From contig CM037585.1 of the NCBI GenBank assembly GCA_021018995.1, positions 118,504,331-118,568,330 on the forward strand: a DNA stretch of 64,000 nucleotides. The letters run 5' to 3'. A program made the position numbers and the translations under genes. How positions within the stretch are numbered: position 1 is the stretch's first letter; each line of letters opens with the position of its first letter. The notes beneath the pieces are model-generated. The model saw only the letters and a program-made list of their open reading frames with translations, did no database searches and was not told the origin of the DNA. Below, in pieces: positions 16,380 through 62,495 of this stretch. Source of the stretch: Chloranthus sessilifolius (Eukaryota; Streptophyta; Magnoliopsida; Chloranthales; Chloranthaceae).

Positions 16380-16434
16380 CAGGCTGACCTCACTGCCTGC
16401 CAGGAGCATAACCATGCCTGCCATGAGTATAATC

Positions 16435-17412
16435 ATGTGGGAGGAAATGCAATCCAAAATTTTAAATGAATACTTCCCTATTGGTAGGACGAATCAGATT
16501 TGCCGAACAATTCAGGATTTTAGGTAGCAGCCTGTCGAATTGTTTCATGAGAGTTGGCAATGCATGAAAGACCTATTGAGAAAGTGTCCTCATCATGGCT
16601 TGTCGAACTGATCAATAGTATAGAGTTTCTATCAAGGGTTGATTGAGACTAATCAGTTGATAGTTGACGCCATAAGTGGAGGAGCCTTTATGGCTCAAAA
16701 CGGCTAGCAGTCTAGAAATTTATTCGAGAAACTGGCCGATAATTCAAAGCAAAAACAGGCCTTGCTAAGGTCTGATCCAGATGTCACTCGTTACACTCTG
16801 CTCATGAGGGGTGAACTTTACGATACCGATAAGGATAAAGTAAAGATAGAAGATGACATGGGTGCTAAAGTGTTGGCTCTTGAGTAGAAAATAGCAACGT
16901 TAATGAGTGCCAAATAAAACACTCCGGATGGACCCATGGCAAACTGTTCTCATTGCCAGACTCAAGCATACACTGAAAACCCTGCTGTACCATCGTACCA
17001 AGAGGTGGTGGAAATTGAACAAGTAATGACTTTTCAGAGGGGAGATTATAGGAATACCGACAATCCGTCGTGGATGAACCATCTAAGATTTAACTACAGA
17101 TCCACAGTAGGGGCACAATTAGTCCCAACAGTTGTGCAGCCCCGATTTCTCCAGACCCAAGTTTTCCATCAGAGACCTCAAATGTTGATTGCTGAATTCT
17201 CAATTCTCTCAAAGGATTTACACCAGCTCGCTCAATTATCTCAAACACTTCACTCACACACACAATCCATTACGAAGTTGGAAAGCCAGATAGGCCAGCT
17301 AGCTTCGCAAGTGGCAAAGAGAGAAAGTGGCCAATTGCTGATGCAGCCAATCAATAATCCTAGAGGCCAAACATTCTTGGGGGAGACATCTGCTCCCCAT
17401 AACCCAAATTAG
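16435..17412 (+). pseudogene. Athila-type gag pseudogene
   Basis: One reading frame runs through with about six stop codons. It starts with WEEMQSKILNEYFPIGRTNQ and continues through CMKDLLRKCPHHG, YQGLIETNQLIVDA and FEKLADNSKQKQ, the order of the Athila/retrotransposon gag domain. The 3' part, an open 158-codon frame at 16936-17412, holds the gag-end motif LESQIGQLASQVAKRESGQL and NNPRGQ. Several stops are one transition from Gln codons (for example in FR*QP). Gag would form the RNA-binding shell of the particle; this copy is dead. Confidence 0.8.
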
Positions 17413-18032
17413 AAACCCTCATGAATTGTCGAGCTACCAACTCATCCGTAGCACATTTGTAAAATATGTAAAGTTGTTTCTTTTTTTTTTTAGATTAGGC
17501 ATTACATTATGAGCAAAATCGTTGAAAAATGATGGATCGTAATTTAATCCCTATTGTACACCTCTACGAACACTCGTATGGATTTACGATTGATCGTCTT
17601 ATTGTTTCTTTTCGCCTATCCGTCGAAATGCAGCGATTGCGATTTCTCTTATACGAGAGTTCATAACTATCATTGCTGGAAGCTAGAATCGACCGATGAC
17701 TCTAGGTTAAACACGTGTGACGACCGATCTAGCAGGTCCCATTATCGAACTCTCAATTTTTGCCCCCATTTTTCTCTCTATTTTTCAAAAATCCATCGAC
17801 TAAGACTCAACCGTTTTTGTTCTTAAAAACTTCCCTTGTATCTCCTGGTTGACCTCAAAAACCCTATTCAAGTCCTAAGTAACATCCTAAAGCTAGGGTT
17901 TGTTGATCAGTCAAGATCAAGGTAATAATTTTCGAACAGAGAAGTCTTTGCAATTGATTTTCAATTGACATATGCGAGTTGCGATTTATTAAATAATACT
18001 CTCTATATCTTACAGATAAAAGGAATTGCAGA
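17413..18032 (+). other. Spacer and candidate spliced leader of the Athila-A extra ORF
   Basis: There is no ORF of note. A possible 94-bp intron, AAG|GTAATA (GT at 17922) to ATCTTACAG (ending 18015), lies 17 bp before the ATG of the extra ORF, consistent with a spliced subgenomic mRNA. The segment also contains CGATTGATCG and CGACCGAT dyads. Confidence 0.4.
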
Positions 18033-20556
18033 ATGTCGGGATTAACAGAAAAGCGACCGAGAGAGGACGACGGTAACAATTTAGATAACTCCCCTCTTAT
18101 CATCCATATAGCACGGTCTACTGCCATTAAAGCTAAATCAAAAGTAGCAGACCCGCCTAAAAAGAAAGCTAAGTCCTCAGGGGTGGTTATTAGAGAAACA
18201 TCTGAAGAGGGATTAGGAACTGAACCAATTTCTACCCCTATAAAGGATAAAGGCAAAAAGCCGATGTCCTTTGAAAGGACATTGGATCAGATTACAACTT
18301 CCACAAAACACCATTTGGTGGGATCTGAGGTTGCGATGGAAGTTGCTTTTTGGGAAGATTTCGAAATTAGTGGGGAAGCTATTAAATATTTTAGGGATGT
18401 AGGGCTTCACTACTTTTTAGAGCCCGGAGTTACACAAGTCCATCCAAGATTGGTGAGACTGTCTTACAAAAATATGACTAATAGTAGCAAGGGTTTAACA
18501 CCAATTCTGTCCACAACCATTGATGAATTCCTAATTCTAATAATAAAGGCAATGGTTGCTGGGGTGATGAATGCACCCTTGGGAAGAAATGAGGTGTCCC
18601 TTGACACTCCAGAGGCGAACATACTTAGAGAACCACCCGAGACCCTTCTGAATTTTTTATTCAAATGGATACATAATTGCTAGGCAAACCCCCAAGGGAT
18701 AGATCATTTTTCTTGCGAAAGGATTTAGAAGAAAGGAGTTTGCTACTTCACTCCTTCGATATTTTAATTCATAAGACTATTCACCCCACGGGTCATGGTA
18801 CACAAAGACGAGCACTTTTTGCAAGGCCATTGTACCTAATGGCTAATCACTATTGGTTTGATGTTCCTTCTTACTGTTTGGAGGTATGAATACCGTGAGG
18901 GAGAAATTGAGTTTGAAGAAGTATCAGACACATAAATTATATCTGTCCTTTGGAGGTCTAATTACAAATTTATTGATGAATGTGGGATATAACATTGATC
19001 CCAAAGAAATGACCTTGCCTAGAATTGAAAAGAGTCTCACAGCTAAGGTTTATAGGAGAACTCTAAGTGCCGCGAACAAAAAGAAAATCCCTATTTCGGC
19101 ATAAACAGAGAATCCCTCTTCAATACCTGAAACCACCCAAGAACAAGATCGTACCATAAGTCTACCGGTAGAATCTTTGGCTCAAGAAGGAACCGTCGCA
19201 GAAGAAAGGGTGACTACTTCTACCCCAACTCAAGCACGATTAGAACATGAATCTCCGATACAGGAGAAGCTAATAGAGTCTGATGAAAGAAATTCACCAG
19301 CAGAAGAGCAAGTCCCCCTATATGACCTAGCATTGGAGTCACCAACTGTGCTTGTTTTACCCCCTTCTACCGAGGCAGACACACTACCAATCATTACAGA
19401 AATAGAGCCGGTGATTGCAATGATGACAACTGCAAAAGAAACACTTCCACCAAGAGAGGAGCAAATTGTTGAATTGGCTACTTCTAGCCATGCTCCTGCA
19501 CATGTAGAGTCTGTCGTTTCACCAACAGTTCCAGTGGCTGCAGAGCATACTCCAATATTTCAAGCCCCAGAAGTAGGGCCAAGTTTTGAAACTCCAAGGG
19601 TCGGTTTCATCAAGTTAATGACCCAAGAAACATCTCTGCCAGTCACAATTATAACAACACCAACATCCTTCGAAGCATAGCATGACCTGGAGAGGAGACT
19701 GAGAGAAGTGGAACAACGGCAGAGTATAAATGCGCCCAACTTAATACCAGTACTAAGAGCCATGAGGAAATTAATGGAAGAATTCACAAGATTGAAAAAT
19801 AGAGTCATCGAGGTTATGCCCATTGCTCAAGAAAGATAAGAAATAGTTGAAAATTTAAAGTGGGAAGCCGCAAGAGAACAACATGCACGCTGGACTGATG
19901 ACAAAAATAGAAGAGTCCAGGAGGCTACTATAGCTCTCCAGGCACAAATAGCACAACTGCAAGCCCAAAACAGGATGATGCAAGAACACCAGTAAGCATG
20001 GGAGAATGAGAAAAAGGAATACGAGGATAAAATTGCTAGTTTGATTGAGCAATTCAGTGAATTGATGAAAGACCCAAGAGTAATAGAAAATAGAAGAGAA
20101 AAATTACATCAAGAATACCAGGAGACCCTCAACAATCTGCTGAGTGAGAAGACTCATGCATTCACTGCAACAGAAGGTAAATTGCAAAAAATGCAAGAAG
20201 CTAAAGATTTCCTAAGCCTGACATGTGAGGAACAAAAGAAATATATTGAGTCTGTCAGAAATAAAAGCTGGGTCGAAATAACAAGAGGAATAGAGGAGTT
20301 AGCGAGACTGAGGGATGAGTTAAAAGAAAAATCTGCTGATAATGATACCCTTAGAGCTACTCTACAGAAAAAGAAAAAAGAAGTAGAAAAGCTGCGACTT
20401 AAGGTCCAGTTGAAATCCTCTGTGATTATTAAGCTGCAAGAGGATACCACTGATGTTCATGACAAGGAGGCTGAGCCTGCAATTCAATGTGAACCACTTA
20501 CAGTAGAAGAATCTGATTGCTCTATCGATTTTATGCTTGACTCGAAGGAGGAATAA
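18033..20556 (+). pseudogene. Athila-A extra ORF (plant-transposon-protein-like N-terminus, coiled-coil C-terminus)
   Basis: The remnant is about 840 codons long, now in three frames: 18033-18683, then 18677-18889, then 18886-20556 with stops near 19102, 19678, 19838 and 19994. The N-terminus is basic (KRPRED, PPKKKAKS), a possible nuclear localisation signal. Residues 100-200 resemble the putative plant transposon protein domain of retroelement ORFs (FWEDFEISGEAIKYFRDVGL, and later YLSFGGLITNLLMNVG). A Pro/Thr/Glu-rich linker and a long heptad-rich helix (about 19680-20500) follow. It occupies the env-like position of Athila elements, but I see no signal peptide or membrane segment, so env function is not supported. 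Its function is unknown. Confidence 0.65.
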
Positions 20557-22600
20557 TCAGGCAGTCATTCTCTATTGCTAGCCCTACCAGCGCCAGCTCC
20601 ACCTACATCAACCCTTGTACCATATCCATCATCTCCTAGTGAGTAAAATTTACAGAACATCGTAAACCTCACAGGTATGAAAATTTTGTTAATTTTGATT
20701 ATCCCCTATTTTTTTTGTGCCAATGAGGGCTTTGTCCAGTGTAAGTTTGGGGGGATATAAAACGTGTATATAGAATAGTTGTAGTTAATAACACTTCATT
20801 TTTTTTTTACTAATATCATTTTTGCAGAAGAATTTTTTTTTTATTGTTACAGTTTGTTAGTTTTTAATAATTCTTAGTTTAAATATAGTTCTTAGTTTAG
20901 AATTAGTTTAAAATTTTATTTATTTTTTAGTTAATCATCATATGTGAATTATGATAGAAAAATTTACGATTCTAAAATTTTTATGATCCATCATAGAAAA
21001 GTTCAATAATCAACACAATAGAGCAGCACAATCCATGTTTAGTCTTTTTGAGCACTGTATCAGAACTGAATGTTTGAAACTATAAGTTGATCTAAATTAT
21101 AATATTTAGATTATAGTTTCTAAATCGTATAATCAATGAGCTTTTAGGCTATATTTCCTTTCTTTGGAGAGAGACTGCTATCTATTCATGCTTAAATTTC
21201 ATTGATTTTTTTTTTAGAAATTTCATATTGTTGAACTTAGGATAAAAAATATTCTGTGATTATGATTATTTGTTTACTTTAGAACTAACTATTAAATATA
21301 TCAAAATAATAAGACATCCATGCTAGTAAATCATGAAAATGATTAAAGGCCATCTTTTGATAAGTCAAAGCTAAAAAGACAAAATCTCACAGAAAAAGTT
21401 TATCCTTTGAACCCATATAAGAATCCTAAACCAAAATTTTTTTGTACTAAAATTTTATAAACCTTTAACCTTATGTACTATCCGAAGCTTTCAACCTTTA
21501 ACCCTTACAATTTCTGAGAATTTAGAATGTAAAAGAAGGGAGAAGAGGGAGTATGAGAAAAATAGATAAGGGGAATGCTGAGAAGTGTACAATTGAAGAA
21601 ATTATGTGAAAAGAAATATGAGAAAATGAGTAAAAATTGTAAATACGATTCTGAAAAAAAAAAAAAAGAAGAGAAGCAAAAAGCTTCCAAAAGTTGAAAA
21701 ATCCAAAGGATATATATATATATATATATAAAGAAAAAAAAGAATGAGATTTATAGAAAGAAAATGGGAAGAAGTTATCCAACTTTTTGGATACTTATTA
21801 TAGTAGAAAAAAAGAAAAAGAAAGAAATGACTAAATTCTCAGAAATACTTTGAATCCTATCTACCATTCTTTTGAAACTTAAAATCAGAGCCTCATTACG
21901 AACGGAAGAAAAGACCTTTTTGATTTACGATTTGTAATAGGATGAGTCTAGTAGAGATATATGCTATAGATACTATGAATAAATGGAGAAGTCATATGAA
22001 TAAAATTGATTATCCATTCTATGAGATTTATTTTCCAGTCAATTGCCTTTGAAATTATTATATATCATACATTGAGAGAACCCAAAATTTTTGATATATT
22101 TTTGAGAGTATGCCAACAGTGAGAGTTTGAATGAAAATATTTTTTAAATCTGCAGTTTAAAAATTTTTATGAAGAATAAACTGTTCACTGGTACATATAC
22201 ACACTCCATGCTTTACAGAGTTGAAAATGCTGAGTTCTGATAAAGGATAATTGATATGATGGAAACTGAAGATGAAAGATTTGTAAATTTGAAAAATCAT
22301 AATAATCATATGATGATTGATTGATTTAGTAGTGTATAAAATTTGAATAGAATTTTAATTTTTTTTTACTTTTGTTTTGAAAAAATTGAAAAATCAAAAA
22401 AATATTTGAAGTTTGTAGGTAACTTCACTGAAAACCTTAAGGAGACTATAAGTCCTCCACTAGGGATCACCTAGGGGTTTAAAGGCTTGTTGCATCTGCT
22501 AAATGCAATCGCGCTCCCTACGAAAGTGGCAAATTAAAATTTTTAGAATAATATTTCTTTTCCTTGTTTGCTAGGGAATAACAAAGCTTAAGTTTTGGGG
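20557..22600 (+). other. AT-rich 3' non-coding region of Athila-A
   Basis: There is no credible ORF; two ORF shadows at 21505-21782 are low-complexity. It contains GATTTACGATT-type dyads (20967, 21925), a (TA)n run near 21711-21730, and at 22430-22550 a block with ACTAGGGATCACCTAGGGGT and AATGCAATCG that recurs before the Athila-B PPT. It ends in the polypurine-like AGTTTTGGGG directly before the LTR tip TGTGATC. Confidence 0.65.
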
Positions 22601-23733
22601 TGTGATCAGTCACATAATTTATCAATTTACCACTCTTAATTTAATGATGCTAGACTTTAATTTGCTACTAACGAGTTACTGATATACAAACATCAAGGAA
22701 AAAAAGTAAAACAGTAAAAGAGATCAAAAGTGTTAATCTTCATAAAAAAAACTTATAAAGCAATAAAAAGACGATTGAGCGTAAAAAGACGATTTGATGA
22801 GTATTGAAAGCCAAATAATCGTATTTTACGATTGAGCGGAAACAAAGAAATGAGAAATCATATTTTACGATTTTCCAAAAAGTGTTCAAAAGTAAAAGAT
22901 GATATAGAAGAACGATCGATCGTTATCTGAAGAATCGTCATTGGAGAAATTCAAGTTAAACAGAGAAATCGTGATTTACGATTCTACGAATATAAAGCTT
23001 TTCCTTGTTACTGGCGAAGAGAAAGTCTACACTGCCATGAACCAAATTAGACGAACTTTTGAATTAGAAGTTTGGTGGATGTAGGACTCGAGAAGATTCC
23101 TAGAAGATCTTGATTACTGGAATAGAGAACAATCTAGAAGCATATCTACTACTCCAAGCAAGGAAGAATTGAGATTAGAAATTAGAGTTATATTAGGATA
23201 CTTTAATTTTTAGAATTTTCTTTTATTAGAATTAGATCTCTGTAAATCGACCACTTATGATCTATAAATAAGAGGGCTCGATATAAGAATAATCATCGAA
23301 GAATTTCATAGCATCAATTGACAACAAAGCTCTATGATTTCTTTCGATTAATAGTTTAGAGTAGTGTAGATATCTGCAGTTTCTCAGAATTAATTGATGA
23401 CTACTGCTGAGTAATGAAAGATATATTTTATTTTACTTTCTAGTATAGATTTATTTTTATGCAATTTACTGCTTTATAAACATCTTCAAATTTTGGTTTG
23501 ATTTGACGACTCAGATTTAGGTTTGCAGATTAGTGTAACGGTTTTACTTTTCCATCTTTAATTTTCTAGAGTTTGATTGACACCCAAATTTCTGGTAGAT
23601 TGTTGATTAGTATAAATCTATATTAAAAGATTTTAGTTTTTGATTGACGACCAAATTCTAGAAAACTGAAATATAGTGTAACAGTATTTGAAAATTGTAA
23701 ACATCTGATAGCAGAAGATTGTGATTAACGACC
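22601..23733 (+). repeat. 3' LTR of Athila-A, first part (continues at 47006)
   Basis: It starts TGTGATCAG after the PPT and carries repeated AATCGT-N5-ACGATT dyads at about 22813-22829 and 22967-22983 with looser copies between. A TATA box, TCTATAAATAAGAG, lies at 23261-23274. It is cut at 23733 by the Ogre-like insertion. Joined to 47011-47245, the LTR is about 1.37 kb. Confidence 0.7.
23261..23274 (+). promoter_or_regulatory. TATA box of the Athila-A LTR
   Basis: TCTATAAATAAGAG in the U3 portion, with transcription expected to start about 30 bp downstream. This is inferred from motif and position only. Confidence 0.5.
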
Positions 23734-25319
23734 TGTGAAATCGTGAGATTTTTGACGATCCCGTCACGACGATGCGTTCGCTTGCAAAAAATATAGAGTC
23801 GTCACCCGGAGCTTTTGGTGTCCCGGGAAACCTAGTTCATTTTTATGAGCACCGAAGTGCTAAAAATATAACTCTGAATCCGGTCCACACCAAAGGCTCT
23901 TGGGTAGGGGCTTCGGTTATTGATCGGGAAGGTGTTAGGCACCTGATCAACTTGCTTAACGCGGTCTCTACTAATGACCAACACAAAAATAAAGTAAAAG
24001 AAAAGAAAATGACTTCCTCTTACCCAAATGAGCCTTAAATCCTATTTGTGCCCCTCCATTCCTACAAAAAATTCGGCGGCGTAACGACACAAATGAGAGG
24101 ATGGGAAGAGCTAAAGAAGAGATAGGAGAGCCGGAGCCCTTGGGACCTTGTAGCACCAAAGGAGAGCCTTGCATTGGATTGCTTTGATGAGCTTTTGAAG
24201 GCTTGAATGGTGGAAAAAGAGGTTCTAACTCCTAAAGCTTAAAGCTAAGAGGTAGAGAGGGAAGGCTAAGGGATTACACACACCTAACCTAAAGGCTTTT
24301 AGTGAAATGCTAAGGTCTAAGGGAGCTTTTTGAAATATGAAAGTTGTATGGGAAGTGTGCACCAAAGGGAGAAAGATCTTCTCACTTTAAGCTCTTTCTA
24401 TCTTAGGCCAAAATTCTCAACCCCTAAATCAAAGGGAGGGGGGCTCTATTTATAGGAAATGGGTGGGTTAGGAGACCACTTAAGTGCTAATTGGGGTTAG
24501 CAATTAGGTATTCTCAAATCTAAGGTTTCCTAGGGTTTTTGAAGCCTTAAAATATGTGAGAAGGTCCTCCAATGGTGGATAATGGGGTGAGGCCTTAAGC
24601 CACTTAAGGGGTTGCAAATAGGTAGTGAGTGGGTGCAATAAAACTATCAAAACACACCCCAAAGGTCGAGGTGGTCAACAAGTCAAACTCTAATCACAAA
24701 TTTCGAGATAAAAAACATGGTTACTGTTTATATGCCTGACGCAACTAATAGTTGCGTTAGGCAAATGTACAGTAAAATAGTGGTGAACAGTGTCTGGAAG
24801 TTGGCTCGCGAGGGTGGGGCCCACATTTAAAATTGGCGCAACTATTAGTTGCGCCAAGCTTAATTTCTGGGAGAAGTGGCCTGGCGCAACTAATAGTTGC
24901 GCCAAGTCCCTAGGGGGCCCCACTCGATTTTACTATTTTACCCTATGGGTTCGGACCGCTATATCTTTTGATGTACAACTCTGATTGGGGCAATTCTTGG
25001 ACCGTTGGAAAGTTGACGTCCTCTACTTTTCAATGGTATGAGATTCGATCATAGTAGAAGGGCGTACCTAGTCCTGGTGCACCACACCCTTTTCTAAGGT
25101 TTTGAAAGGTTAGGTTTAGGTTCAGAACAGGTTCTAAGGGTTGGGATTGATTTTTAAAGGTTCAGGGTAGGTTTTTAAGGGATCTAGGGTGATTCCTAAG
25201 GGTTTGGAAGGGTTCTAGGGTGGTTCCTAAAGGTTCTATACATGCCATCAAAAGCTCGGAAGCACACCTTTCTCAAAATGTGTTTCGATCAGGCTTTGGG
25301 CCAAATTTGGGTGTTTACA
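23734..25319 (-). repeat. 3' LTR of the Ogre-like element
   Basis: 1586 bp, with tips TGTGAAATCG (left on +) and GGGTGTTTACA (right on +). On the - strand a TATA box CTATAAATAG lies at 24446-24455. Three copies of the element-specific palindrome lie at 24734-24762, 24833-24857 and 24882-24904. The ORF-like stretches are not conserved as protein. Confidence 0.88.
24734..24904. repeat. Ogre palindrome cluster in the 3' LTR (3 copies)
   Basis: The consensus is arm CTGGCGCAACTA, one central A/T, then its reverse complement TAGTTGCGCCAG. Copies are at 24734-24762, 24833-24857 and 24882-24904. The second and third pair without internal mismatch over 23-25 bp. Confidence 0.9.
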
Positions 25320-25336
25320 GATGTCCCTCTTTGGTA
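25320..25336 (-). other. Polypurine tract of the Ogre-like element
   Basis: On the - strand ACCAAAGAGGGACATC abuts the LTR tip TGTAAACACCC. A purine-rich run directly before the 3' LTR is the expected plus-strand primer site. Confidence 0.6.
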
Positions 25337-25454
25337 TCCGATCACTAATGATCGAATGCTAAAGAAAGAGACATTCGAAGAGGCCCATGACATTACTGAC
25401 GGGTCCACTGTATTCAGAACGAACTTCAAACATCAGATGAGTAACATGCTAAGA

Positions 25455-25600
25455 AAACGAAAGCCCTGGATGTCAGGCTAAACATTCGTTTCTCAAGGTA
25501 ATCGGTCCCCAAGCGCTTAGCGACATTACTGGGCATAACCAAGGTGGAACGAGTTGCGAAAGCCCTGTATGTCAGGCCAAACATTCGCTTCTCGAGATGA
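25455..25600. repeat. Two-copy repeat of about 40 bp, spaced 97 bp
   Basis: CGAAAGCCCTG, ATGTCAGGC and AAACATTCG occur in order at about 25459-25497 and again at about 25556-25597 in the Ogre 3' region. No coding role is apparent. The surrounding stretch 25337-26940 otherwise holds no recognisable gene. Confidence 0.6.
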
Positions 25601-26960
25601 TTTAAAGGTATTTGATATTTAAGATTCATTCTGAATGCAACAACTTCGTAAGTAAGAGGGGTGATCGACCCACATTCAAAGATAGGCGCAAAGTAAATAT
25701 ACGTAAGGCTCCACAGTTTGCATCCAATCCTACGAGGCATTTGATTGCCCCATCTGACTATTCACGAGTGCCCTTGCTGAAAGCAGGGTTTGAGATCTTT
25801 GGGCGAACCCATCGACCCTGAAGTTTATTTAGCATGACTGCCTGAGCAAAGTGAATAGATATCACAACGCTTTTTGGGAGGACGTGCAATTTTCGAAGAT
25901 GTGCCCCAAATCAATATGACCTAGAGCATCTAGCTTCAACTACCTTGAACAGATCCAACCAAACATTGGGCATCTCATAAAAGGGACATCCAATCCAAGT
26001 TTTTGCCAATAATGATCATAAATATTATTTAACTATGCATTAACATGCAGTAATTAGGGGCAACAAGTAACAAAGGCGATGGAAGCCCCGACCCGGACCT
26101 GCCCAGGTATAATTTACGAGAACAAACGACTATCATACGGATACCCAGACGCATGGCGTACACTTTACAAGGATACCGCTGCCAATACAGGTTTTAAGCC
26201 TGCAGAAAATAAAGGGGAAATGAACCCTTCTGGATGCATGGTTGCACATAGTTTGATTGATACGTAATCTCATTCTCAACAAGTTGGTCTTAACCAACGA
26301 TTGACCTTTTCCAATGGAGAATTTGAAGCTTGAGACAGTTAAGTTCCAAAACAGAGAGCTCATCACAAAGATTTAGCAGTGGAGTTAACTCGATCGAAAT
26401 ATTGATTGTTTGATCGGGACTGATGCCGTTGCTCCTACCTTAAAGTAGGATCCAAAGATCCAAGGCAAACCTTAGACTCAGGACTTTAATATGGCACAAC
26501 TGCATTGCTGATAAAATATTGACATTTTATCACCTTATGCTTGTGCGTCTTTGCGGGGAAACACAAATAAGTTGTGATGATTTTTCTATCATTTTATGTG
26601 ATTTTTTTTTTATTTTGAAACTATTATTTTATGTGATTTTTTGGATTTTTCAAGTTATTTTAAGCGATTTTCCTATTATTTTTTGTGAATACTTTCGGCT
26701 TCTCTATGGGGATTTTATTTATTTATTATCATTCACCATTTTTGTTAGATTTTTCTTCATATTTTCTTGTGTAGGACCGGGGTGCTTATTGATCTTGGTT
26801 TGCTTTTATTCTAGCACAGCTTCCTTGACAAATCGAAGGATGATCGAGATGCCATCTCGAGAGCGTGTGCATCTGTCGGGAGCGATAAGACAAACAAAAA
26901 GAGTGGGGGGACCGGCTTTCCTATCTGACCCGTACTAGGCCCAAGACCCGACCTAAGTGC

Positions 26961-27912: not shown

Positions 27913-28141
27913 GCTTAACCTGGGGAGCTGTGGGTCCTTATATACCCGAGTTAGCCCAAAAATTATTGTTTCTTTCTGTTTAACTTGGCCCCTTTGACCG
28001 ATTCTTTTTGCTCTTGCTTTTCCAAGGCGGGTTCATCACCATACATCGATTTTTATCTTCTCAAAAAATATTTGTACGTCTATAGACTCGCCTTTTAACC
28101 CTCCCTTATGTGGAGGGCCCGGAGCCAATTTAACCCCTTCC

Positions 28142-45363: not shown

Positions 45364-45365
45364 TC

Positions 45366-47245: not shown

Positions 47246-47282
47246 TAAGATAGCAAGTCAGGAAGGATGTTCCTTTTAACCT

Positions 47283-51789: not shown

Positions 51790-51910
51790 CGAGAACCTAG
51801 CAAGGTGAAATTCTGAAGCTAGGAACGTAGCGAAAACCTAGCGAGGTGAAATTCTGAAGCTAGGAACGTAGCGAAAACCTAGCGAGGTGAAATTCTGAAG
51901 CTCTATCCTC
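51790..51910. repeat. Three-copy tandem repeat, 41-bp period
   Basis: Units with AACCTAGCGAGGTGAAATTC and TGAAGCTAGGAACGTAGC start near 51792, 51831 and 51872. They appear to be an amplified form of the CGAG box that populates this insertion. Confidence 0.85.
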
Positions 51911-53082
51911 GCGAGGCACGAATTCCAGCCACTTGTTTTCACACTCCAGGGATATTTTGGGGATTTCACAACTTCTAGGGCACACATCCCAATGTCCCAC
52001 ACATCCCAAAGCATCCAAGGGCTGCAAATAAGCCACGACGCCAACTCCAAACCTCCTCATTTCTGATTGGCTATTGCACATAGCTGCTGTAAGGATTGTA
52101 TAAATTGAGTTATATTATATTTTCTAAAACATCCAAAATAGCTAGATCACTTTTAGGTTTTATTTTTCTAGGGTTTCGAGTCAGACTTGTTTCCCTTTTA
52201 TTTTTCATTTCTTCCTCCTTTAGCCCAGCGGCAATGCTGAGTTAATGTTCTTTGTAGCAGCTAGGTATATTCTAGTTTTGCAATTGGTTTTGTAATAACA
52301 TAGAGAGCTGTCTTGAGATTTTGCAAGGACTGCTGCCTTGAGGGCAATCATTGTAAGTTAATTTTAATCAATGAAATGCCATGTTTAAAGCTCCATTAGA
52401 TTTGTATTTTTCTGTGTTTTTTCACACAAATTTTTATAGGTTTTGATGTTCCCATGGTTGCTTGAGCTTGTAGCTCTGCAACCATGGTGGCAGCAGTAGT
52501 TTTACTGTTTTATCTTCAATCTCAATGATCCGGATAACCTATGGGATAGCTTGTGGTCATTAAAGTGGGTAGGGTATAGTCCTAAGGCTGGTCCATATCA
52601 CAGGGCTGAGATAGATTCTTTTTCTTTGCACTTAATCTTGCAGCCAAGTGAGAGATAGTTGCAGAGCAAAACTCTCCTCTGTTTTACATCTCCATTTTCA
52701 GTGAATAGACCTGATATTTTGTAGAGATTATAGACTTGTGAGCTACGTCACTGTAGGTCTTTTTGTAGCAATGACCAGCTGAGTCTAAAGCCCCATTCAA
52801 CCCATTGATTTTTATGTTTTTCACCTGATTTTTAAGGGTTGTTTGTCCATATGGTTGCTTGAGCTTGTAGCCTTCCAACCATAGTGTCTGCAATAGGTTT
52901 TATGTTCTGATTTAATCCAATGATTGGATGAAATCCCTGGGGTATTTTGTGACCATTTAAGTGGACAAAATACAACCCTAAGATCAGTCTAGACCTCTTG
53001 GTTAGGTTAGATTTTTCTACCTAGCAGATGTACTTGTTGCCATCTAAAGGATTGCTGTAGATTCAGTTATAGATCTGATTTA

Positions 53083-53200
53083 CATTGCTGATTTACCCAC
53101 AACTGTCTATTTCTTCATCTTTTATCTTTATTTTACCATACCATTGCTGATTTACCCACAACTGTCTATTTCTTCATCTTTTATCTTTATTTTACCATAC
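53083..53200. repeat. Exact 59-bp tandem duplication
   Basis: The unit beginning CATTGCTGATTTACCCAC is repeated head to tail (53083-53141, 53142-53200) with no difference visible. It is much fresher than its surroundings, or an assembly artefact. Confidence 0.9.
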
Positions 53201-53919
53201 CATCATCACCCTTCTTTATCCCCTTTCTTTAGTTGTAGTTTATTTTTAGTATAGTTTAGCTTTGTGACACTTAAACACCCTCTCTTTACCTTTCTTTCTA
53301 GTTTAGGTTTAGAGTTATTAGATCTATAACTAGATCTGGAGAATTACTATGTCCTTATAGTTTAGATCATCACTCCCTGTGGCACAAACTCTTAATTGAT
53401 TAAAACTTGTTACAACAGGCCCTGGATCTTACAGGACTGTGTATTTTAGAGTGTTGTTTATATGTTTTTTTCACCTCATTTCATCTCCCTTTGTTTTGTT
53501 TTACTTTTATCATTGTTTTCAATAAAATAACAGCAACACTTTAAAATACCAACAAGAACCTTAAGAGAATCTATTTCTCTTGTGAAATGGTTGTGAGAGA
53601 GTTATTTAGAGAGAGAGAAGAGGGAAGAACAATTAATACGGTTGTGTGAATGTGTGTATGAAGAAGTTTAGGTTGTGTATTAAGTGCGAGGTTGGATTGT
53701 GAGGAATCCGAAGCTCTAAGCTACAAAGCCCTTATTGTGTGCGAGAGCGTGGATCAAAGTATTGATCGACTTAAAGGTAAGAATTCTTAATGAATGAATT
53801 CTTAATGAATGAATATGCTCATTTAAGTTGTGCATATGGGTGAAAGATTAGAAGGAGAAAGATAAGATTTGAAGGAAAATGGGTTGGAGAAGTTCAAACC
53901 CAAGTTGGGCGAAATCTGA

Positions 53920-54265
53920 TAAAACTGACCGGTCGATTTGGAAAATCGACCGATCAATTTTGTCAAAGCTATGAACCTAAGGTATAAGAACGAAACCGAC
54001 CGATCCAAATAATTTCGGTCGATTTGGAAAATCGACTGATCGAAAGAAGATCTACCAGTTGATTTTCACAAAACAGGAAGTGTGTAAATTAAGTTCTTGG
54101 GAAATCGACCAGTCGATTTCGAATCGACCAGTCGATTTCGAATCGACCGATCGATTTTGAAAACCGACTGGTTGATTTTAAAACCGATCGATCGGTATCT
54201 GAGTACTAGAAGACTGATTTTCTGAAGGAAATCGACCGGTCGATTTGGGAATCGACTGATTGGTT
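53920..54265. repeat. Dyad array in the Tekay-like LTR
   Basis: About ten imperfect ATCGACC/GGTCGAT dyads. Centres lie near 53930, 53951, 54110, 54129, 54148, 54169, 54189, 54237 and 54257, so neighbours are 19-21 bp apart. Related CGACTAGTC and CGACTGGTC occur near the LTR start (about 49302-49330). Confidence 0.85.
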
Positions 54266-55734
54266 TTAGCAGTTTCAGGACTTTGGTTTGTTTTAAAAGG
54301 AGGGCTTTGTGGAGACTTTGTATCTCCCTGTTTTGCGTCATATTTTTGACGTTTTGTTTATGTAATTGTATGTGTTAGGTATAAGCTTGAGCAATGGGAT
54401 AGAAGGGCTAACATGAGCTAAGGAAATTAAGTGTGACTTCGTGTGAGGTAGGAAAAACTCTGCAACACGCATATTTGATTTTGTTAGCATGCTTTTATGA
54501 TATGATAGGTGTGTGTATGAATGGTGGTTTTGTAAATCATTCAGCATGGGTTCGTTTAAGTATTTAAATGAGATAGATGTGAGTGAGTATGAAATGTGAT
54601 AGGTGAGCATGTGACATTTGTAAGAATTAAGGATATGTGTGAGTGACACCAGGAATATGATATGTGCGTATGTGAACTTCAAAATCAAAACTAATATGAA
54701 TTATCACAATATACGGTGAATAACTATATGTAGATTTTGCACGTTGATTTAAGGTTATGTATTGAACACCCTACCGAGGCGGTGGTATACCCGCAACCAG
54801 TACGGTGGGATATCCGTAATTATGCTCTGGTATGGCGGGATATCCGTTCTTTGGTTTCTAATATGTGGAAATACTTCGTTTGGCATAAGTCTCCTAATTC
54901 GAAGGGGCTTGGGCAATTTCATATGAATGGTTCATTGAATGACGATGTTTGGGGTGTTCCATCGGTATATATATGGCTTTCAATACTATATTTGCTCGAT
55001 AGATTATTTAAGTGATTTGTTTAAGTATATGTGTGCGTTAAGAGAACAACTTGAGTAATCATGATAAGCATGTTTGAAGCTTTGCATCCGATATATATTT
55101 TAGTCAATTTAAATGCTTTTAAATTGTAACTCATTGTAAGAGAAGCATGTTTTTGATTGTGTCATGAAATATATGTTTGACATCATAATATGCATCTTGT
55201 TTAAGTTTTCCTATTGAGCTTAGATGTAGCCCTTCGACTATACGTCACAGGTTCAGAGGTAGCTGCGGGGACTAAGGACGTAGATTCTGAGGACTCGGAG
55301 TACATTCCTAAGGAGGAGACTGAGCCCCCTCTAGAGGAGTTCTTCTAGTAGATTGAGTTGCGCTTGTGTATTTTGAGAGCTATGTTGTAAGGCTTAGTAC
55401 GTCCAGCCGGTTTAGTTTTGTAAGGATAATTGTATATGTCATGCAGTATATTGTTTTGCGAACCATACGTTGGTGACGATTGTTGTCACTCCTGGTTTGG
55501 TTCTTTCTGCCATGTGAGTACATGGGGTTAGAACTCTCTTTTGTGATCTTTTGAGTTGTCTTGTATAGAAATGGAAATTTCTTTCTTGTGATGACTCTAT
55601 CTACTTGTTAGATGTGTACTTTGTTCCTCTTTGAGTGTGGATGTGCCAAGTGTTCAGTGAGTTATAATGGGTTTGGCCTTAAGGGCCTTACCGACGGCAC
55701 CGATTTTCGGGGTGTGAAAATTTGGGCTATCACA

Positions 55735-56420
55735 ATTGAATTGAAAATGTGGATACCACGTTTATGAAGTAAACTCTCAATCGATTGAGTTAAATCAATT
55801 GATTGAAGTCACTTCTTAGCATATGTCTTGGCTGCATCTTCTGCTCGTGCAAGTGATCAATTCAATCGATAGATTGCGTTGAACTCTTACGTACACTTTA
55901 ATTCATTAATATCAACCATTGATTTAGTAAAATCAATCTATTGACATCAATGAATTTTGTAACCCAAGTGTCATTCTTCGCGTCTTTTCAAATGTCATTT
56001 GAAACGTCACTGCTTTTATGCCAATTGATTGAGTTTCCAAAATCAATCGATCGACATAATGAGTCGCCTGACGGTTTCCCAGTCCCAGAGCAACTTGACT
56101 CGCGTCTTTTCAAATATTCATTCGAAACGGCGTCGCATTAAATTCAACCGATTGATTTTCTCAAATCAAATTCAATCAATTGATTTTCTCAAATCAATCC
56201 ATTGAATTCAAGAGGTCTACTACCGAACAGTCTTGCATTAAAATCAATCGATTGAAATTTTAAATTCAACCGATCAATTTTAGCATTCTCAACCGTCTCT
56301 AGCCGCGAGAAATTTTAGTTTAAGGGACACTCTTGGTCCCTTCTCCACCATTCTCTGAACATTCTCCTGAAGCCCTCTCCTTCCTAGTACTCTCTTGCAC
56401 CTTTATCCCTGACTTTCTTC
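55735..56420 (+). other. Athila-B non-coding block rich in CAATCGATTG dyads
   Basis: About ten to twelve copies of CAATCGATTG or one-step variants lie between 55777 and 56282, many in pairs. They stop about 140 bp before the ATG of the extra ORF at 56421. The last stretch (56320-56420) is a CT-rich leader. Confidence 0.8.
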
Positions 56421-57569
56421 ATGGCTGATGGTGCTAGTCCCGCGATTCAATTATCACCACTCCCCAACAATGTTCCAAGAAGCATGCAGTTAGAAGACTA
56501 CACCGATCGGCAAATCTAAACCGAGAATTTCTTCGATCTTATCGAGTTTCACCGAATTCCTGAAGTAGTGCGCTCCATCGCTAACATCGAAGCGGCTCAT
56601 CTCGAGATGCTACTCGCGCCTCCACCTATTGATGCATCCTTGGGCATAATCTGCCTATTCTATCAAAATATGGAATGGATACCGGCATTGCGTTCTTAGT
56701 TAGGATTCGATTACATCTGCATTAGGATTGATAACTGGGTCTATAGGGTTCAAGCTTTGGATCTTACCGAGGCATTCCATTTTTATGTGCACCGACCTTT
56801 GAACCATCAAATTGAGCGGGAAGTAGATCTTAGCCAAGAAGAAATGATTGCTAATATGGCTGGGAGTAGACATGGGTCGGGGCTCTCTACGCCTCGATCG
56901 GCCTTGCCCTGCGACATTTTGTTTTGGGATATTGTGATGTCTACCAATATCCTACCTCATGGGACCAAGAGCGAATAGACTGGAAATTGTGTGGCGGCAC
57001 TTTACGTAGTTCACACAAACACATGGATTGATGATCCGATAATGATGCTTGATGAGATGTATCGATGCCACAACGACATCGCCACATTGATGCAACGTCG
57101 GGAAAGTTTGTTGCTTTACTTCCCTCATTTTGTCATGCACCTTCTGGATCATCTAGGGTGCCCGATATACAATGACGAGGCGTTGGGCGATATGCAGTTC
57201 TACCAGTACGGGCGAAATGTGTGGAACAAGAGCATGAAGGCTCTCTTCAGGAATGTGCCAGGAAATATTCAAGATGATGCACCACCTCTTCCCCAACCAA
57301 ATCCTGAACAATGCCAATGTGGTAGATATCGAAGGCCTTGTTCCGAAGAGGCCCCTGATTTCAATGCCGAGGCGGCTATCTCACACCTCGAGGCGCGGAT
57401 GGATGGATTTGCTATGAGGATTGGTGGTATGGATCGAAGATTACATTACCAGGGTTCCCTCATTACCCAGATCGCTAGGGAATCATTCCTAGGGCAGGCA
57501 GATGGGTTCATTGCACGAGCGCGAGCGACAATGGATAGAGAGGGTGATGACGAAGATGATGAAGATTGA
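56421..57569 (+). pseudogene. Athila-B extra ORF 1
   Basis: A single frame of 382 codons with three stops (56517, about 56697, 56976). It starts MADGASPAIQLSPLPNN. The N-terminal half has the plant-transposon-protein-like pattern (FDLIEFHRIPEVVRSIANIE, LFYQNMEWIPAL). The C-terminal third has a Cys cluster (EQCQCGRYRRPC), a helical segment (AISHLEARMDGFAMRIGGMD) and an acidic end (EGDDEDDED). Its position equals the extra ORF of Athila-A. No signal peptide or membrane segment is seen. Function unknown; no CAATCGATTG motif lies inside it. Confidence 0.65.
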
Positions 57570-58220
57570 GAATGATTGGGTTTAGAGAATGAATTTTGGT
57601 TTTCTGATGCTTTGACGTTTGGTGTTCTTGTGTGTTAGGATTTTTAGTTTGGTTAAACGTTTTGGTTGTTTTAGGTTTTTATGATTAGGGTAGTTTAATT
57701 TCGATGTTAGTGTGTGATTGAATGTAAAAAGTTTTCAACTTTTAATGGAAAAATCAACTGGATTGTGTTCTGTTCGAACTAATGTGAAGTTGCTCACTTT
57801 TTCAGTCGATCGATTGAAAATTGAAAATCAATCGATGGACTGATGCGTATTGAAAACATCTTCAATTGTTCAAAACACATATCAATTGATTGAAATGTCA
57901 ATATGAATCTATCGATGTGGTGTAGGTTCGTATTTCCAGACTTTAAGAAACTTTCTCAATTTTAATGTTCTGCCCAAAATTGGCATTTTCTATAGAAATA
58001 AAGTTTCTTCTCACCAGCTGGTCATTCCTACAACATGACCACATCAATTGATTGATTTCCAAAAATCAATCGATCGACTTTCAAAAGTCCTAGATCCTAT
58101 TCGGAAAATTGCAATTTTTATTATTTCCCCTTAGATTCTTCCTCTTTTAGGCTATTGCCCTTAGTTTTTCATAATTAGTTTCCTTAATTCTTAGTACTTC
58201 TCATCCCTCAAATTCGATTA
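57570..58220 (+). other. Spacer between Athila-B extra ORFs
   Basis: Non-coding, with paired CAATCGATTG-type dyads near 57803-57837, 57886-57925 and 58044-58076 (centres 22 bp apart in the last pair). Confidence 0.75.
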
Positions 58221-58607
58221 ATGAAGAGCATTAAGTACCACACCCGTGCTGCTGTGAAACGCTTGAATGAGCCGGCCTGAATAAAGGCTCGTAGGGATGC
58301 TCCACCAGAATCGTTGGATTTATCTAACATTGAAGTGATGGATCTGGATCCGGTTTTTCCACCCCCTCCATCCCCGCGTTCACCACTTGATCTCATGCAT
58401 ATCGATCCACCACTATCAACTTTTCCTCCGCGAAACCCCCACCCATTCACTCGTTCCTTGTCTGCGTTGAATTCTATGACGGAGCTGCCTAATGTCCTTG
58501 ATTTAATTCCAACTTACCTTTGGGCAGAGCTGAATCTGCAACCCAAAAAACATCGATCCGTCACCACCACCATCCACCCCACCACGTGCTCCAATTTTCG
58601 CTCCTAG
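58221..58607 (+). pseudogene. Athila-B extra ORF 2 (small, proline-rich)
   Basis: The ATG at 58221 opens MKSIKYHTRAAVKRLNEPA, a TGA follows at 58278, and the same frame continues to 58605. The downstream part has acidic and Pro-rich runs (DLDPVFPPPPSPRSP, IDPPLSTFPPRNPHP). No family recognised. It contains no CAATCGATTG motif although its flanks do. Confidence 0.45.
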
Positions 58608-61041
58608 CCACGCTGGAATCACCAAAGAAATGTGGAATTTTATGTTCCCAAAACCAAAGCCAGGGATGACTAGTAATGAGGATTATGGATATAGATTTCG
58701 TTTGAGTTTTAGGATTTAGGATTTGTTTTAGGGTTGGTTTTATTTTTCATATTAGGTTAGTTTGCATTTTTTAATTCATTAGGCTTAGTTTTTATTTTAA
58801 ATAAGTGTAATAAGCACATAGAATTAAATAAAAATTTAGTATATTTTATTAATTTTGCATTGTGTGTGTTTCGATTTGTTCTTTCATGATATTTATTGAT
58901 TTTTAACCTGTAATATTAATTATGGGGCATGATATTTTGACACCTGATCTGCCTTATGGCTGTGATAAGTTTTTATCAGGTTTGGGGGTTCCCAGATTCA
59001 CTTTCGCATAATGAGGACATTGAACCTGATAGGTTTGGGGTGATAAACATCATGCATTCGATACCAAGTTATTGCTTTTCAATAGAGCATAACGGCTCAA
59101 AAACAAGAAGAGTCGGTTCTCGGAATAGTTGAAATCGATTGAATTCTTGAAAATCAATCGATTGACTGACAATTATTGACCAAGAATTCTTTTGGAGCTG
59201 ATACATCTCAATCGATTGACTTTCACAAATCAATCGATTGACGGACAACTATGGCCCGAGATTGTTTGTAATATGGTGCAAATCAATCAATTGATTTTCA
59301 AAAATCAATCGATCAATTGTGCACAGTAAAGCCTATTTTCAAATTTCAATGTGTTTTCAGGATTTTTAATTGCCGATACTCGTGAAGATTTTGTGAAAAT
59401 TATCATGCCTTGTTAAGATTATAATTGCCTATGATCATTAGTTCAATGTGAAGTTTCAAAACATGATTCTGCAGTTCATGACTAGAACTTGTTGCACCAT
59501 TACCATGCTTGAATGTCGAAGTCAAGGGACTAGTTTAAAACTTTGAATCCTAAGATTCTAGTGGAGACTAAAAACTCGTTAGCTTTAGATCCATCCATTT
59601 GTTCTTGATGAGTGCTCATACGAATGCGGAGTGTTTTTGAATACGTACCAATTTTATTTAATCTCATACGTTGTTTATTGGTTTGTTTACTTTACATATG
59701 TTGTATCATCGTACTAGAACACATTGCCCTTTTACTCAAAATAAATAGGCATGCTTACCATCTTGGGAGGAGGTGATTGAAGGCCATCTTTGGCTCGTTT
59801 GTGCTTAAAATATCCTACCTCATACAGTGTTTCTTTTAGCAACCCCTTTGAGTCGTATTGAAAAATTGCCCTATTATGTTTTTGATAAACCACGATAACT
59901 ACACCATTACACTATTGCTGAAAATTAAGCCTTAATCTCTGAAAAATCGGGAAACAGAAATAAGAAATAAATGAAAAGAGAGTATGTGGAGATGTGTGAT
60001 AGTGGTGACCATTGGGAGATAGGGCAGAAATTTTGAAGAAAAAGGGTGAAAAGAAGAAGAAAAAAAATATTTATGTGTGAAAGAGGTAGAAAAATAATAT
60101 ATATATATATATATATATATACGAGGTGATGTCGAAAAGAAAAAGAAAAAGAAGGAATGAAAGAAAAGAAAGTTGAGAAAAGAGAAAGAAAAATTCTGAA
60201 AAATTCAAAAAGGAAAGAGTGAAAATAAGAAAATCAAATGTGTTTCTTTTCCCGATTTCTCAGAGAAATTTGAATCAAATTTCCCTTTCTTCCATAACCT
60301 TCACCCGAGCCCCATTATAACCCTGAAAAAGACCGTCTTGATCCAATCTTGATTGGTAAATGCCTTGTGGAGAGTGAGAGTGTAATGTCTATGGTGTGTG
60401 ATGTAGCGTGCTTCAGATACAAACATCTTTTTCAATATAAGATTCATTTTCATTCATTGATGCATCATGTTTCATTTTAACATGTGAGGTCCTTTTAGCT
60501 TTGTTGTAATACTGTCTCACATGTGTGCAAAAACTGAACCATTCATCAGAGCGATTCTATTTTGAGTGTATATCTCAGGTGAGGATTGAGTTGAGACATA
60601 GGATTCAAAGATTCCCTGTTTGAGCTTGTTCCCTGATGAAAGGATTTTTGCATTGGTAAAGCACACACGACACTCTACGCGTGAATGAAAGAATCATCTG
60701 AAGAGCAAAGCATTAAATTGATTTGAATGGGCATTGATAAGATTAGCATGGCGATGTGTTTGATATTAAAGATTCACTCGTTGCAAACAATCGATGGTTA
60801 TGAAAACTATTGTTGAAATTTAAAGGCCTTGAAGGTTGTGGGTATATTCACTGAAAACTTTTAGGAGACACAACTCTTCCACTAGGGATCACCTAGGGGT
60901 TTAAAGGCTTATTGCATAAGCTAAATGCAATCGTGTTCCCTACAAAAGTGGCATTTATTTTCTTAGGATGTTAGTTTTACTTTGCTTTGACATATTTATC
61001 ATTTTCTTTACTCAAGGACTAGCAAAGTGTAGGTTTGGGGG
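58608..61041 (+). other. Athila-B 3' non-coding region and PPT
   Basis: No ORF. Three motif pairs lie at 59131-59165, 59208-59242 and 59281-59318. There are A-rich stretches with an (AT)n run near 60094-60120. CCCCATTATAACCCTGAAAA (about 60311) is wording common in Athila 3' regions. A conserved block (60835-60955) shares ACTAGGGATCACCTAGGGGT with Athila-A. The PPT is AGGTTTGGGGG at 61031-61041. Confidence 0.7.
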
Positions 61042-62495
61042 TGTGATCTGTGCCAAAATATAACTATATTTCATACCCTAATACCAACATTTGGTTGTCC
61101 AATGAAAGTAATCTAACGGCTGTTGTGTAGTTTTAGTGGTTTCAGGTGTTCTTGACTGTTGGATCTTGCATGAGTATAAAGGAGCATAATTAAAGACTAC
61201 ATGGGAGCATTAAACCATGAAGCCATCGGAAGCACCAAAATCTATGAAAAGAACCAATTGATCCATCCACTACTAAGAGAATTAAAAATGTCACAGGTCT
61301 AACTCAATCGATTGAGGTTATGACACCTATTTTACAACCCAAAATCAGAATTTAAAATCAATCGATTGAATTTCAAAAATCAATCAATTGAGTTTGTGAC
61401 AACTATTTTTCCTCTCAAATTTGAATTTAAATTTAATCGATTGATTTCCTAAAATAAATCGATTGATTTCAAATTCAGATCAAAGTTCAGATTTTAAATT
61501 CAATCGATTGAATTTTGGAATTCAATCGATTGACCTGTATATGGAAGATTTTCTCTATGCACCTTATATAAACACAACATTGTTTAAGGCTTTGGGGACT
61601 TCTTCTTTTGCCGAATTTCTTAGTTTTTTTTTTTCTAATTTTTCTCCATTATTTTTAGTGCTTAGTTTAGCTTTTGATAAGTACTTTGTAAATAGGAATC
61701 AAAGCTTTGTAAGGTTCCGAATGTCTTCCTAAAAAGTTCCAAACATTTGATAAATAAAAGAATGATTTTGATGATTTTGAGTTCGTGTGTTGCATTCGGA
61801 TCGAGGATGAGCGACTAAACACCGCGATCGAGGAGGACGTGAACCCTAGATGAGTAACTAATTTATTTTAAATTCCATCATTTCTTGTCATATTTATTGA
61901 ATGGTACGGCTATAGTTTGAGCATACCGATACATCCTCGAATACTCATTTATAACAGTTGATCTTGTTGATCGACGACAATAAAAGATTTATTCCACCTA
62001 GATCAATCTAGGATGCCGTACGATTGATTATCCTTGTTATGGTTATGAGCTTGTGATATGCTATACCTTTCGCATAATTCATATCGTGATTGAATGCGTC
62101 ATAGTATTAGGATAGTGTATGCTGATTATCGTAATCACATTTTTATCAAATCATTTTACTTATAGTAAAATGAGAGTTAATAAATTGTGATTGGAATGAT
62201 TGGATTATTTGTAGAAAATTACACATCTAGGGGTAGCGGAATCGTTGATTATTCATCATAAGTTATTTTATTTGTCATTGTTCATCCTTGCATAAGTTTG
62301 TTTAGATCTTTTTAATTATGTTGTGTAGTTGTAATCTTTATTGTATCATAAATCTCGCCTTTAGTACTTCCTTAGATTTGTTACACTCTCTTGAGAATTA
62401 ACGAAATAATGCGCTTCCCTGTGGGTATGACACTCGTATTCTTGCCTTGCTACAACAAATCTTGTGCGCTTGCAAGGGTATTATTTCTAAAACCA
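61042..62495 (+). repeat. 3' LTR of Athila-B
   Basis: It starts TGTGATCTGTGCC and ends after GTGCGCTTGCAAGGG near 62490-62498 (exact end uncertain). Motif pairs lie at 61300-61545 just upstream of a TATA box TTATATAAAC (61564). It is diverged from the Athila-A LTR except at the tips. Confidence 0.7.
61564..61573 (+). promoter_or_regulatory. TATA box of the Athila-B LTR
   Basis: TTATATAAAC lies 30-70 bp downstream of a dense group of seven CAATCGATTG dyads (61305-61535), so the dyads sit in the proximal promoter position. Confidence 0.5.

Follow-up and report, generated by a model that had tools for sequence, protein, structure and literature searches.

The Sirevirus lineage of Ty1/copia retrotransposons is described as carrying a palindromic repeated motif (RM) that differs between elements, occurs 8 to 32 times in each, and clusters in the long terminal repeat (LTR) ahead of the TATA box; in elements with an ENV gene, it is also clustered upstream of this gene (Bousios et al. 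2010, PMC2829016). The same account calls the RM Sirevirus-specific within Ty1/copia and gives a CGG-CCG core for 12 of the 13 published motifs. In VANDAL transposons, the VANC21 motifs (YAGTATTAY) are reported to share a single orientation, frequently as part of tandem repeats, and to be bound by the element's own protein (PMC5735166). Extra open reading frames (ORFs) have also been described: the antisense ORFs of Retand elements are predicted to bind DNA and nearly all carry TRP28 (PMC11963269), that of maize Grande has its own promoter upstream (PMC7264820), and an extra ORF can also be present in sunflower Tekay elements (PMC12844716). Here we analysed a window of 64,000 bp from Chloranthus sessilifolius (contig CM037585.1, positions 118,504,331 to 118,568,330), in which nested LTR elements come after a host gene that encodes a filament-like plant protein (FPP), recognized by domain matches. 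Several of these elements carry arrays of their own short motifs in non-coding DNA.

The nest includes an Ogre/Tat-like element that splits a first Athila element (Athila-A), and a second one (Athila-B) that is interrupted by a Tekay-like solo LTR, in turn interrupted by a 4,058-bp solo LTR (the 4.06-kb insertion). Lineage names draw on domain matches where present, gene order, sequence reading and an earlier note on this DNA, and solo LTRs are not assignable; the assignment of Athila-A is tentative, and the Tekay-like LTR is provisionally named after the earlier note.

Position weight models built from hand-picked seeds and applied at a threshold of 2e-5 per position outlined a motif for each element. 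The Ogre-like motif TGGCGCAACTA-W-TAGTTGCGCCA is present at 17 sites (0.41 expected), the Athila-B motif AATCAATCGATTGATT at 29 (0.18), the Tekay-like motif AAATCGACCRRTCGATTT at 12 (0.04), the motif AACCTGTCGAGCTGC of the 4.06-kb insertion at 21 (0.09) and the Athila-A motif ATTTACGATT at 4 (0.15), with 0, 2, 9, 2 and 1 matches, respectively, elsewhere in the window. Counts of k-mers, a list of palindromes and the position weight models were concordant on these motifs. The Tekay-like model matches Athila-B 14 times, so that these two motifs are related. The Athila-A signal is weak, with 3 dyads in the annotation-free scan described below, and within the LTR by itself the top-ranking CpG hexamer, with 8 copies, is matched by the best of 200 shuffles; across the element, ACGATT occurs 14 times in non-coding DNA (shuffled mean 1.9, maximum 7) and once in coding DNA. 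Three of the five motifs are clear dyads, with a model symmetry of 0.91-0.95 (Ogre, Athila-B and Tekay-like), while the strong motif of the 4.06-kb insertion is not dyadic (correlation of the model with its own reverse complement, -0.35). The earlier note had assigned each of the five elements a different CpG-containing motif, dyad-symmetric in all but perhaps the 4.06-kb insertion; this is confirmed, with clear symmetry in three motifs, and has to be tempered by the weakness of Athila-A and the kinship of the Tekay-like and Athila-B motifs.

An annotation-free scan of CpG dyads in 2-kb segments, seeded on exact 12-base dyads and compared with shuffles that keep neighbouring-base frequencies, placed 23 of 63 segments above all 30 shuffles. 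Six motifs account for 22 of these segments, two of them new and the others those of Ogre, Athila-A, Athila-B and the Tekay-like LTR; the remaining segment (19001-21000) holds one dyad against none in the shuffles. With 20 shuffles, 21 of 63 segments were above, including the marginal 49001-51000. No segment was flagged inside the Ogre gag-pol region, the main FPP exon or the solo LTR at 30747, nor was 57001-59000. Dyads lacking CpG also exceeded shuffles, in 15 of 63 segments (the same arrays account for 12 of them, a CCATGG minisatellite for two and another weak dyad for one), and CpG is therefore common in the arrays but does not define them.

Restriction to non-coding DNA was evaluated with models trained on LTR copies alone and tested on internal DNA, so as to avoid circularity, with the limits of coding DNA drawn manually on the basis of ORF pieces and domain matches. 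For Ogre, 10 sites were found in 5,406 bp of non-coding DNA versus 1 in 10,453 bp of coding DNA (Fisher p 1.6e-4; shuffled non-coding DNA, mean 0.32, maximum 3), and for Athila-B 22 sites in 3,892 bp versus 1 in 3,445 bp (Fisher p 1.9e-5; shuffled, mean 0.35, maximum 3), p values that overstate independence because the sites cluster. The full models placed 0 Ogre, Athila-A or Athila-B sites in hand-set coding DNA at 2e-5, and one coding site each in Ogre and Athila-B at 1e-4. The solo LTR at 30747-34933 served as a negative control and contained 0 sites with the Ogre and Athila-B hold-out models and no CpG dyad array. An effect of base composition is rejected by the shuffles, which preserve neighbour frequencies, and by this 4.2-kb LTR without such arrays. 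Within this window, the motif was thus found enriched in the non-coding DNA of one family, and the earlier claims that copies sit in LTR, leader and 3' DNA and avoid coding DNA, that the solo LTR lacks them and that base composition does not explain them were all borne out.

The earlier note had not described where the arrays tend to lie, namely ahead of TATA boxes or of ORFs, the Ogre antisense ORF among them (Table 1). In all three LTR types of known orientation (Ogre, Athila-A and Athila-B) a TATA box lies downstream of the array, at a distance of 30 bp in Athila-B and of about 280 bp in Ogre and Athila-A. Sites fall within 600 bp upstream of such an anchor in 15 of 17 cases for Ogre, 20 of 29 for Athila-B and 10 of 14 for Athila-A. 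A rotation test with 600-bp windows returned p values of 0.039, 0.037 and 0.18, respectively (combined 0.011), and combined values of 0.011 and 0.009 with 400- and 800-bp windows; the test is exploratory, because the anchors were chosen after the arrays had been seen. Ahead of the Ogre antisense ORF, a TATATA lies about 27 bp past the last site, where the strict TATAWAW pattern matches the other strand only. About 210 bp separate the last site of the 4.06-kb LTR from the TATA that follows at 52099, and TCGAGC occurs 16 times before this TATA and 0 times after it (p=0.001); the array is upstream only if the LTR reads on the plus strand, and three minus-strand TATA matches are present.

Table 1. 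Elements, extra ORFs and motif arrays in the 64,000-bp window (positions from the first base of the window)
Feature	Position	Strand	Description
Athila-A	16380..23733	+	gag remnant, spacer, extra ORF, 3' region, LTR from about 22604; sequence reading
Athila-A half-sites	17517..17591		two ACGATT, 442-516 bp upstream of extra ORF
Athila-A extra ORF	18033..20555	+	broken; first piece with basic stretches KRPRE and PKKKAK resembling a nuclear localization signal (by eye)
Athila-A LTR array	22771..22983		8 ACGATT half-sites, 280-492 bp upstream of TATA 23263; second TATA match 23611
Ogre/Tat-like element	23734..47005	-	splits Athila-A; gag-pol on minus strand; ends set by eye
Ogre-like LTRs	23734-25319 (3') and 45366-47005 (5')	-	pair 87.6% identical over 1,643 aligned columns
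Ogre 3' LTR array	24737..24904		3 sites, 283-450 bp upstream of TATA (24454, minus)
Degenerate Ogre sites	26962..27032		2 sites, about 0.9 kb upstream of antisense ORF
Ogre antisense-ORF array	27747..27911		4 sites 47-48 bp apart; upstream of TATATA at about 27939 and of antisense extra ORF
Ogre antisense extra ORF	27998..29576	+	broken; weak DUF7745 matches in two pieces
Solo LTR	30747..34933		4,187 bp, TG...CA, target repeat ATTTC; inside Ogre-like element
Ogre leader array	44370..44534		4 sites 47-48 bp apart, 348-512 bp before first minus-strand ORF (ends 44022)
Ogre 5' LTR array	46383..46591		4 sites, 284-492 bp upstream of TATA (46099, minus)
Athila-B first part	47226..49253	+	pol remnant and start of spacer upstream of extra ORF 1; integrase core E=7.9e-13
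Athila-B spacer sites	49216 and 49238		two motif sites, start of spacer upstream of extra ORF 1
Tekay-like solo LTR, piece 1	49254..49496		possible target repeat AGTGA/ATTGA; holds CGACTAGTCA and CGACTGGTCA; sequence reading
4.06-kb insertion	49497..53554		4,058-bp solo LTR, TG...CA, target repeat AGAAC; within Tekay-like LTR
4.06-kb LTR array	49661..51890		AACCTGTCGAGCTGC, 21 sites, all ahead of plus-strand TATA 52099
Tekay-like solo LTR, piece 2	53560..55731
Tekay-like array	53922..54266		12 sites, 7 of 11 spacings 19-21 bp
Athila-B remainder	55732..62499	+	spacer, extra ORFs, 3' region, 3' LTR from about 61041
Athila-B array before extra ORF 1	55775..56279		10 sites, 142-646 bp before ATG 56421
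Athila-B extra ORF 1	56421..57569	+	in-frame stops
Athila-B array before extra ORF 2	57804..58079		5 sites, 142-417 bp before ATG 58221
Athila-B extra ORF 2	58221..58640	+	broken; end approximate
Athila-B 3'-region array	59129..59318		no ORF found downstream of array
Athila-B LTR array	61302..61535		7 sites, last 30 bp upstream of TATA 61565

The two Athila elements share a 126-bp non-coding block at 87% identity (22406-22531 in Athila-A, 60829-60953 in Athila-B) just before the polypurine tract, and 47 bp at 77% identity at the junction of this tract and the LTR start. Their motif sites lie, by eye, at like places (before the first extra ORF, about 0.4-0.7 kb after the last extra ORF and about 170-490 bp into the LTR), and the motif sequences differ despite these like positions. 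Two extra half-sites in the Athila-A 3' region and the Athila-B array ahead of the second extra ORF are unmatched. For this one element pair, in which the Athila-A signal is weak, the comparison suggests that array positions may be kept while the motif changes between Athila families.

Motif copies from different arrays of one element are 84% (Ogre) and 77% (Athila-B) identical, and their 15-bp flanks 36% and 38%. Tandem duplication as the sole cause is hence rejected, given that motif copies are alike and flanks unrelated between arrays. Distances between neighbours are regular, with 22 bp in 10 of the 24 under 200 bp in Athila-B, 19-21 bp in the majority of the Tekay-like spacings and 47-48 bp in 9 of 12 in Ogre. 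On balance, this spacing and the mainly one-sided half-site deviations given below would favour a protein dimer on DNA over an RNA hairpin.

These observations are consistent with a reading that we regard as moderately probable, in which the cis-regulatory DNA of each family holds an array of a short DNA-binding site private to that family, read by a dimeric protein that is likelier to come from the host. The family's own cis-regulatory sites would be the arrays that adjoin the LTR promoter and those close to extra ORFs with separate expression. A dimeric DNA-binding protein would load on them at a spacing of about two helical turns (Athila-B and Tekay-like) or of 47-48 bp (Ogre) and, once bound, might coordinate the promoters of one family. 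A transcription factor of the host would be a likelier reader than a protein of the element itself, and the motif would be swapped quickly between related families while its places are retained, giving each family a private regulatory address. Several points weigh against this reading. Its support comes from sequence, with one copy per family; the position test is weak and post hoc, and Athila-A by itself does not pass it; no ORF was found after the 3'-region sites of either Athila element, and the degenerate Ogre sites are distant from the antisense ORF. In addition, the motif of the 4.06-kb insertion lacks dyad symmetry, and the orientation of this LTR and of the Tekay-like LTR is not established, so that the order of array and TATA box is undecided for the latter. 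Finally, 8 of the 12 arrays that were folded as RNA have z-scores of -3.6 or below (-6.8 for the Ogre leader, -6.2 for the Ogre antisense-ORF array, -4.8 for the Tekay-like array), versus -2.0, -1.0 and -0.7 in controls, and 8 of the 13 pair positions changed in both half-sites remain complementary.

The last two results speak for an alternative that we consider improbable, namely that the palindromes act as folded RNA, in packaging or dimerization, or as a source of small RNAs for host silencing; palindrome clusters of Sireviruses are indeed reported to have an excess of small RNAs (PMC10760457 on Bousios 2016). Any palindrome folds, however, and the Athila-A array (z -0.8) does so no better than shuffles, while three further arrays (z -2.4 to -2.5) barely surpass the solo-LTR control. 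Furthermore, deviations are mainly one-sided (113 versus 13 pair positions over three motifs): 29, 54 and 30 among 187, 232 and 108 pair positions in Ogre, Athila-B and Tekay-like, respectively. Both-sided changes number 3, 7 and 3, against 1.6, 5.0 and 3.0 expected if half-sites vary independently, so compensatory RNA pairing was rejected for want of an excess, in spite of the complementary fraction, which CpG decay on both strands could by itself yield. Such decay is visible only in Ogre and Tekay-like, to judge by their shares of C-to-T plus G-to-A changes among deviations (16 of 35 and 18 of 36, versus 11 of 68 in Athila-B). It is quite improbable, in our estimation, that the arrays have no function and reflect slippage and unequal exchange multiplying short repeats in fast-evolving non-coding DNA, with selection purging them from ORFs only. 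Some arrays are indeed tandem (47-48-bp units in Ogre, 75-bp units in Athila-B), and site numbers differ between the two Ogre LTRs (4 and 3), but the motif persists between arrays of one element while flanks differ, recurs at several separate places per element and is similarly placed in Athila-A and Athila-B, and the solo LTR has no such array.

A further candidate for the reader is a protein encoded by the extra ORFs, which would bind the private motif and activate or de-silence its own family in a VANC-like manner. The motifs are largely element-specific, the arrays adjoin extra ORFs in Ogre, Athila-A and Athila-B, and the first Athila-A piece has stretches resembling a nuclear localization signal; the predicted DNA binding of the Retand antisense ORFs and the extra ORF of sunflower Tekay elements, as described in the accounts cited above, point the same way. 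The Athila-A piece at 17997-18680 had no relative at E<=1e-3 among 151 candidates, and the first Ogre antisense piece none at E<=0.01 among 7 candidates, a weak negative, both being short, broken pieces; the Ogre reverse transcriptase had 4,978 relatives in the same database, a contrast that a fast-changing specificity protein might give. Nevertheless, no Pfam family, and hence no DNA-binding one, scored above cut-off in the extra-ORF pieces searched (Athila-A, Athila-B and Ogre antisense), the DUF7745 matches of the Ogre antisense ORF (27998-28408, E=0.0034; 28886-29068, E=0.039) lying under it. Two extra-ORF structure models had a mean predicted local distance difference test score of about 35, too low for a fold to be read from them. 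Two of the five motif carriers, the Tekay-like LTR and the 4.06-kb insertion, show no reader ORF because both are solo LTRs, and dyads with unrelated flanks are unlike the VANC arrays as described. Protection of motif CpG is also unsupported: between the two Ogre LTRs, 2 of 12 motif CpG positions differ versus 24 of 94 other CpG positions, numbers too small to decide. The latter proportion, set against 118 of 1,422 other positions, suggests past methylation of this LTR pair. Taken together, we deem a self-encoded reader unlikely. A bolder form of it, in which several Ty3/gypsy lineages would independently have evolved self-addressed regulons, is one we view as rather unlikely: a private dyad would mark sense and antisense promoters, the element's own fast-evolving extra-ORF protein would read it and lift silencing or activate only that family, and related families would keep the positions and swap the motif, thereby escaping each other's regulators and the host.

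Compared with described systems, the regulatory reading favoured here finds its closest parallel in the Sirevirus RM. As in the account of that motif (PMC2829016), the Ogre, Athila-B and Tekay-like motifs are palindromic and exceed eight copies (the 4.06-kb motif does not conform, and Athila-A does so weakly), LTR clusters lie upstream of the TATA box in Ogre, Athila-A and Athila-B (in the 4.06-kb LTR only if plus-strand), and copies occur upstream of an extra gene (the Athila-A extra ORF, both Athila-B extra ORFs and the Ogre antisense ORF). The Sirevirus Tnd-1 motif ACAATCGATTGT of that account shares ten central bases, CAATCGATTG, with Athila-B. In contrast with the RM as there described, the CGG-CCG core is absent from the Ogre and Athila-B consensus, although Tekay-like sites hold CCGG in part; the carriers are Ty3/gypsy elements (Ogre-like, Athila), a Tekay-like LTR and one unassigned LTR; arrays are also found in the leader and before an antisense ORF; and one motif, that of the 4.06-kb insertion, is non-dyadic. 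With VANDAL/VANC, the elements share short family-specific motifs that are dense in non-coding DNA and change between related families (PMC5735166, PMC10398659). However, VANDALs are Mutator-like DNA transposons, whereas these are LTR elements with reverse transcriptase and integrase, and same-orientation tandem motifs contrast with the dyads in unrelated flanks of Ogre, Athila-B and Tekay-like. The arrangement is partly alike, some Ogre and Athila-B arrays being tandem repeats and the 4.06-kb motif non-symmetric. Binding by a self-encoded protein and loss of methylation have been demonstrated for VANDAL (PMC5735166, PMC10398659), whereas the present arrays were recognized in DNA sequence.

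By analogy with these accounts, we read the arrays as a putative Ty3/gypsy counterpart of the Sirevirus RM, a closer precedent than the VANDAL/VANC system to which the earlier note had likened them; the family-specific non-coding motifs on which that likeness was built are well supported, and it is in symmetry and arrangement that it gives way. Retand and Grande resemble the Ogre-like element in having an antisense extra ORF, that of Grande with its own promoter, and differ in the TRP28 of Retand versus the weak DUF7745 matches here; no motif common to LTR, leader and antisense promoter was met in the parts of these accounts available (PMC11963269, PMC7264820). Among the titles and starts of abstracts listed in literature searches, which for one search comprised 20 of 59, no report of such arrays in Ty3/gypsy elements was seen, and no transposon paper containing the six motif strings was found, only two unrelated papers. 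In a collection of viral contigs, neither the Ogre motif nor the paired Athila-B motif was found, and the Tekay motif occurred in four contigs, taken as chance; no relatives of the Ogre reverse transcriptase or the Athila integrase were confirmed in it, 21 and 16 pattern matches, respectively, having failed confirmation.

As regards the elements themselves, the Ogre-like element has a target repeat of cgacc/ctacc with one mismatch and Pfam matches above cut-off for reverse transcriptase, RNase H, integrase zinc-binding and G-patch domains, those for gag and protease lying below. A profile search of Athila-A returned no Pfam family above cut-off, and its LTR apparently resumes, on sequence reading, at about 47011-47225, past the Ogre-like insertion. 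The Ogre-like element also contains a 24-bp CCATGG minisatellite with a GGGCCATGGGCCC-like dyad within its gag-side ORFs (42748-42927), and tandem units of about 51-53 bp (30196-30342) with the antisense ORF on one side and the solo LTR on the other. An inverted pair at 81% identity (33561-33909 and 62954-63300) has one member within that solo LTR and the other outside the nest. The CpG-dyad scan brought out two arrays missing from the set that the earlier note had given, which was hence incomplete. A 225-bp array at 6536-6760, upstream of the FPP exons found, consists mostly of GATACGTATCG-type palindromes with inverted ends resembling GGATCAAAAT/ATTTTGATCC (RNA fold z -7.4) and is possibly a small transposon. 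The stretch at 14203-14367, before the last FPP exon found, holds a short array (about 14217-14360) of TTCGCGAA-type palindromes with flanks GTCACAA...TTGTGAC (RNA fold z -3.6).

If general, these results would turn a feature described as Sirevirus-specific within Ty1/copia (PMC2829016) into a recurrent property of plant LTR retrotransposons, with Ty3/gypsy elements using other motifs. They would also assign a testable role to unexplained extra ORFs, as readers, and to antisense ORFs, as genes co-regulated via the same motif. The pair of Athila elements, alike in array placement and unlike in motif, makes it directly testable how the regulation of separate families is kept apart.

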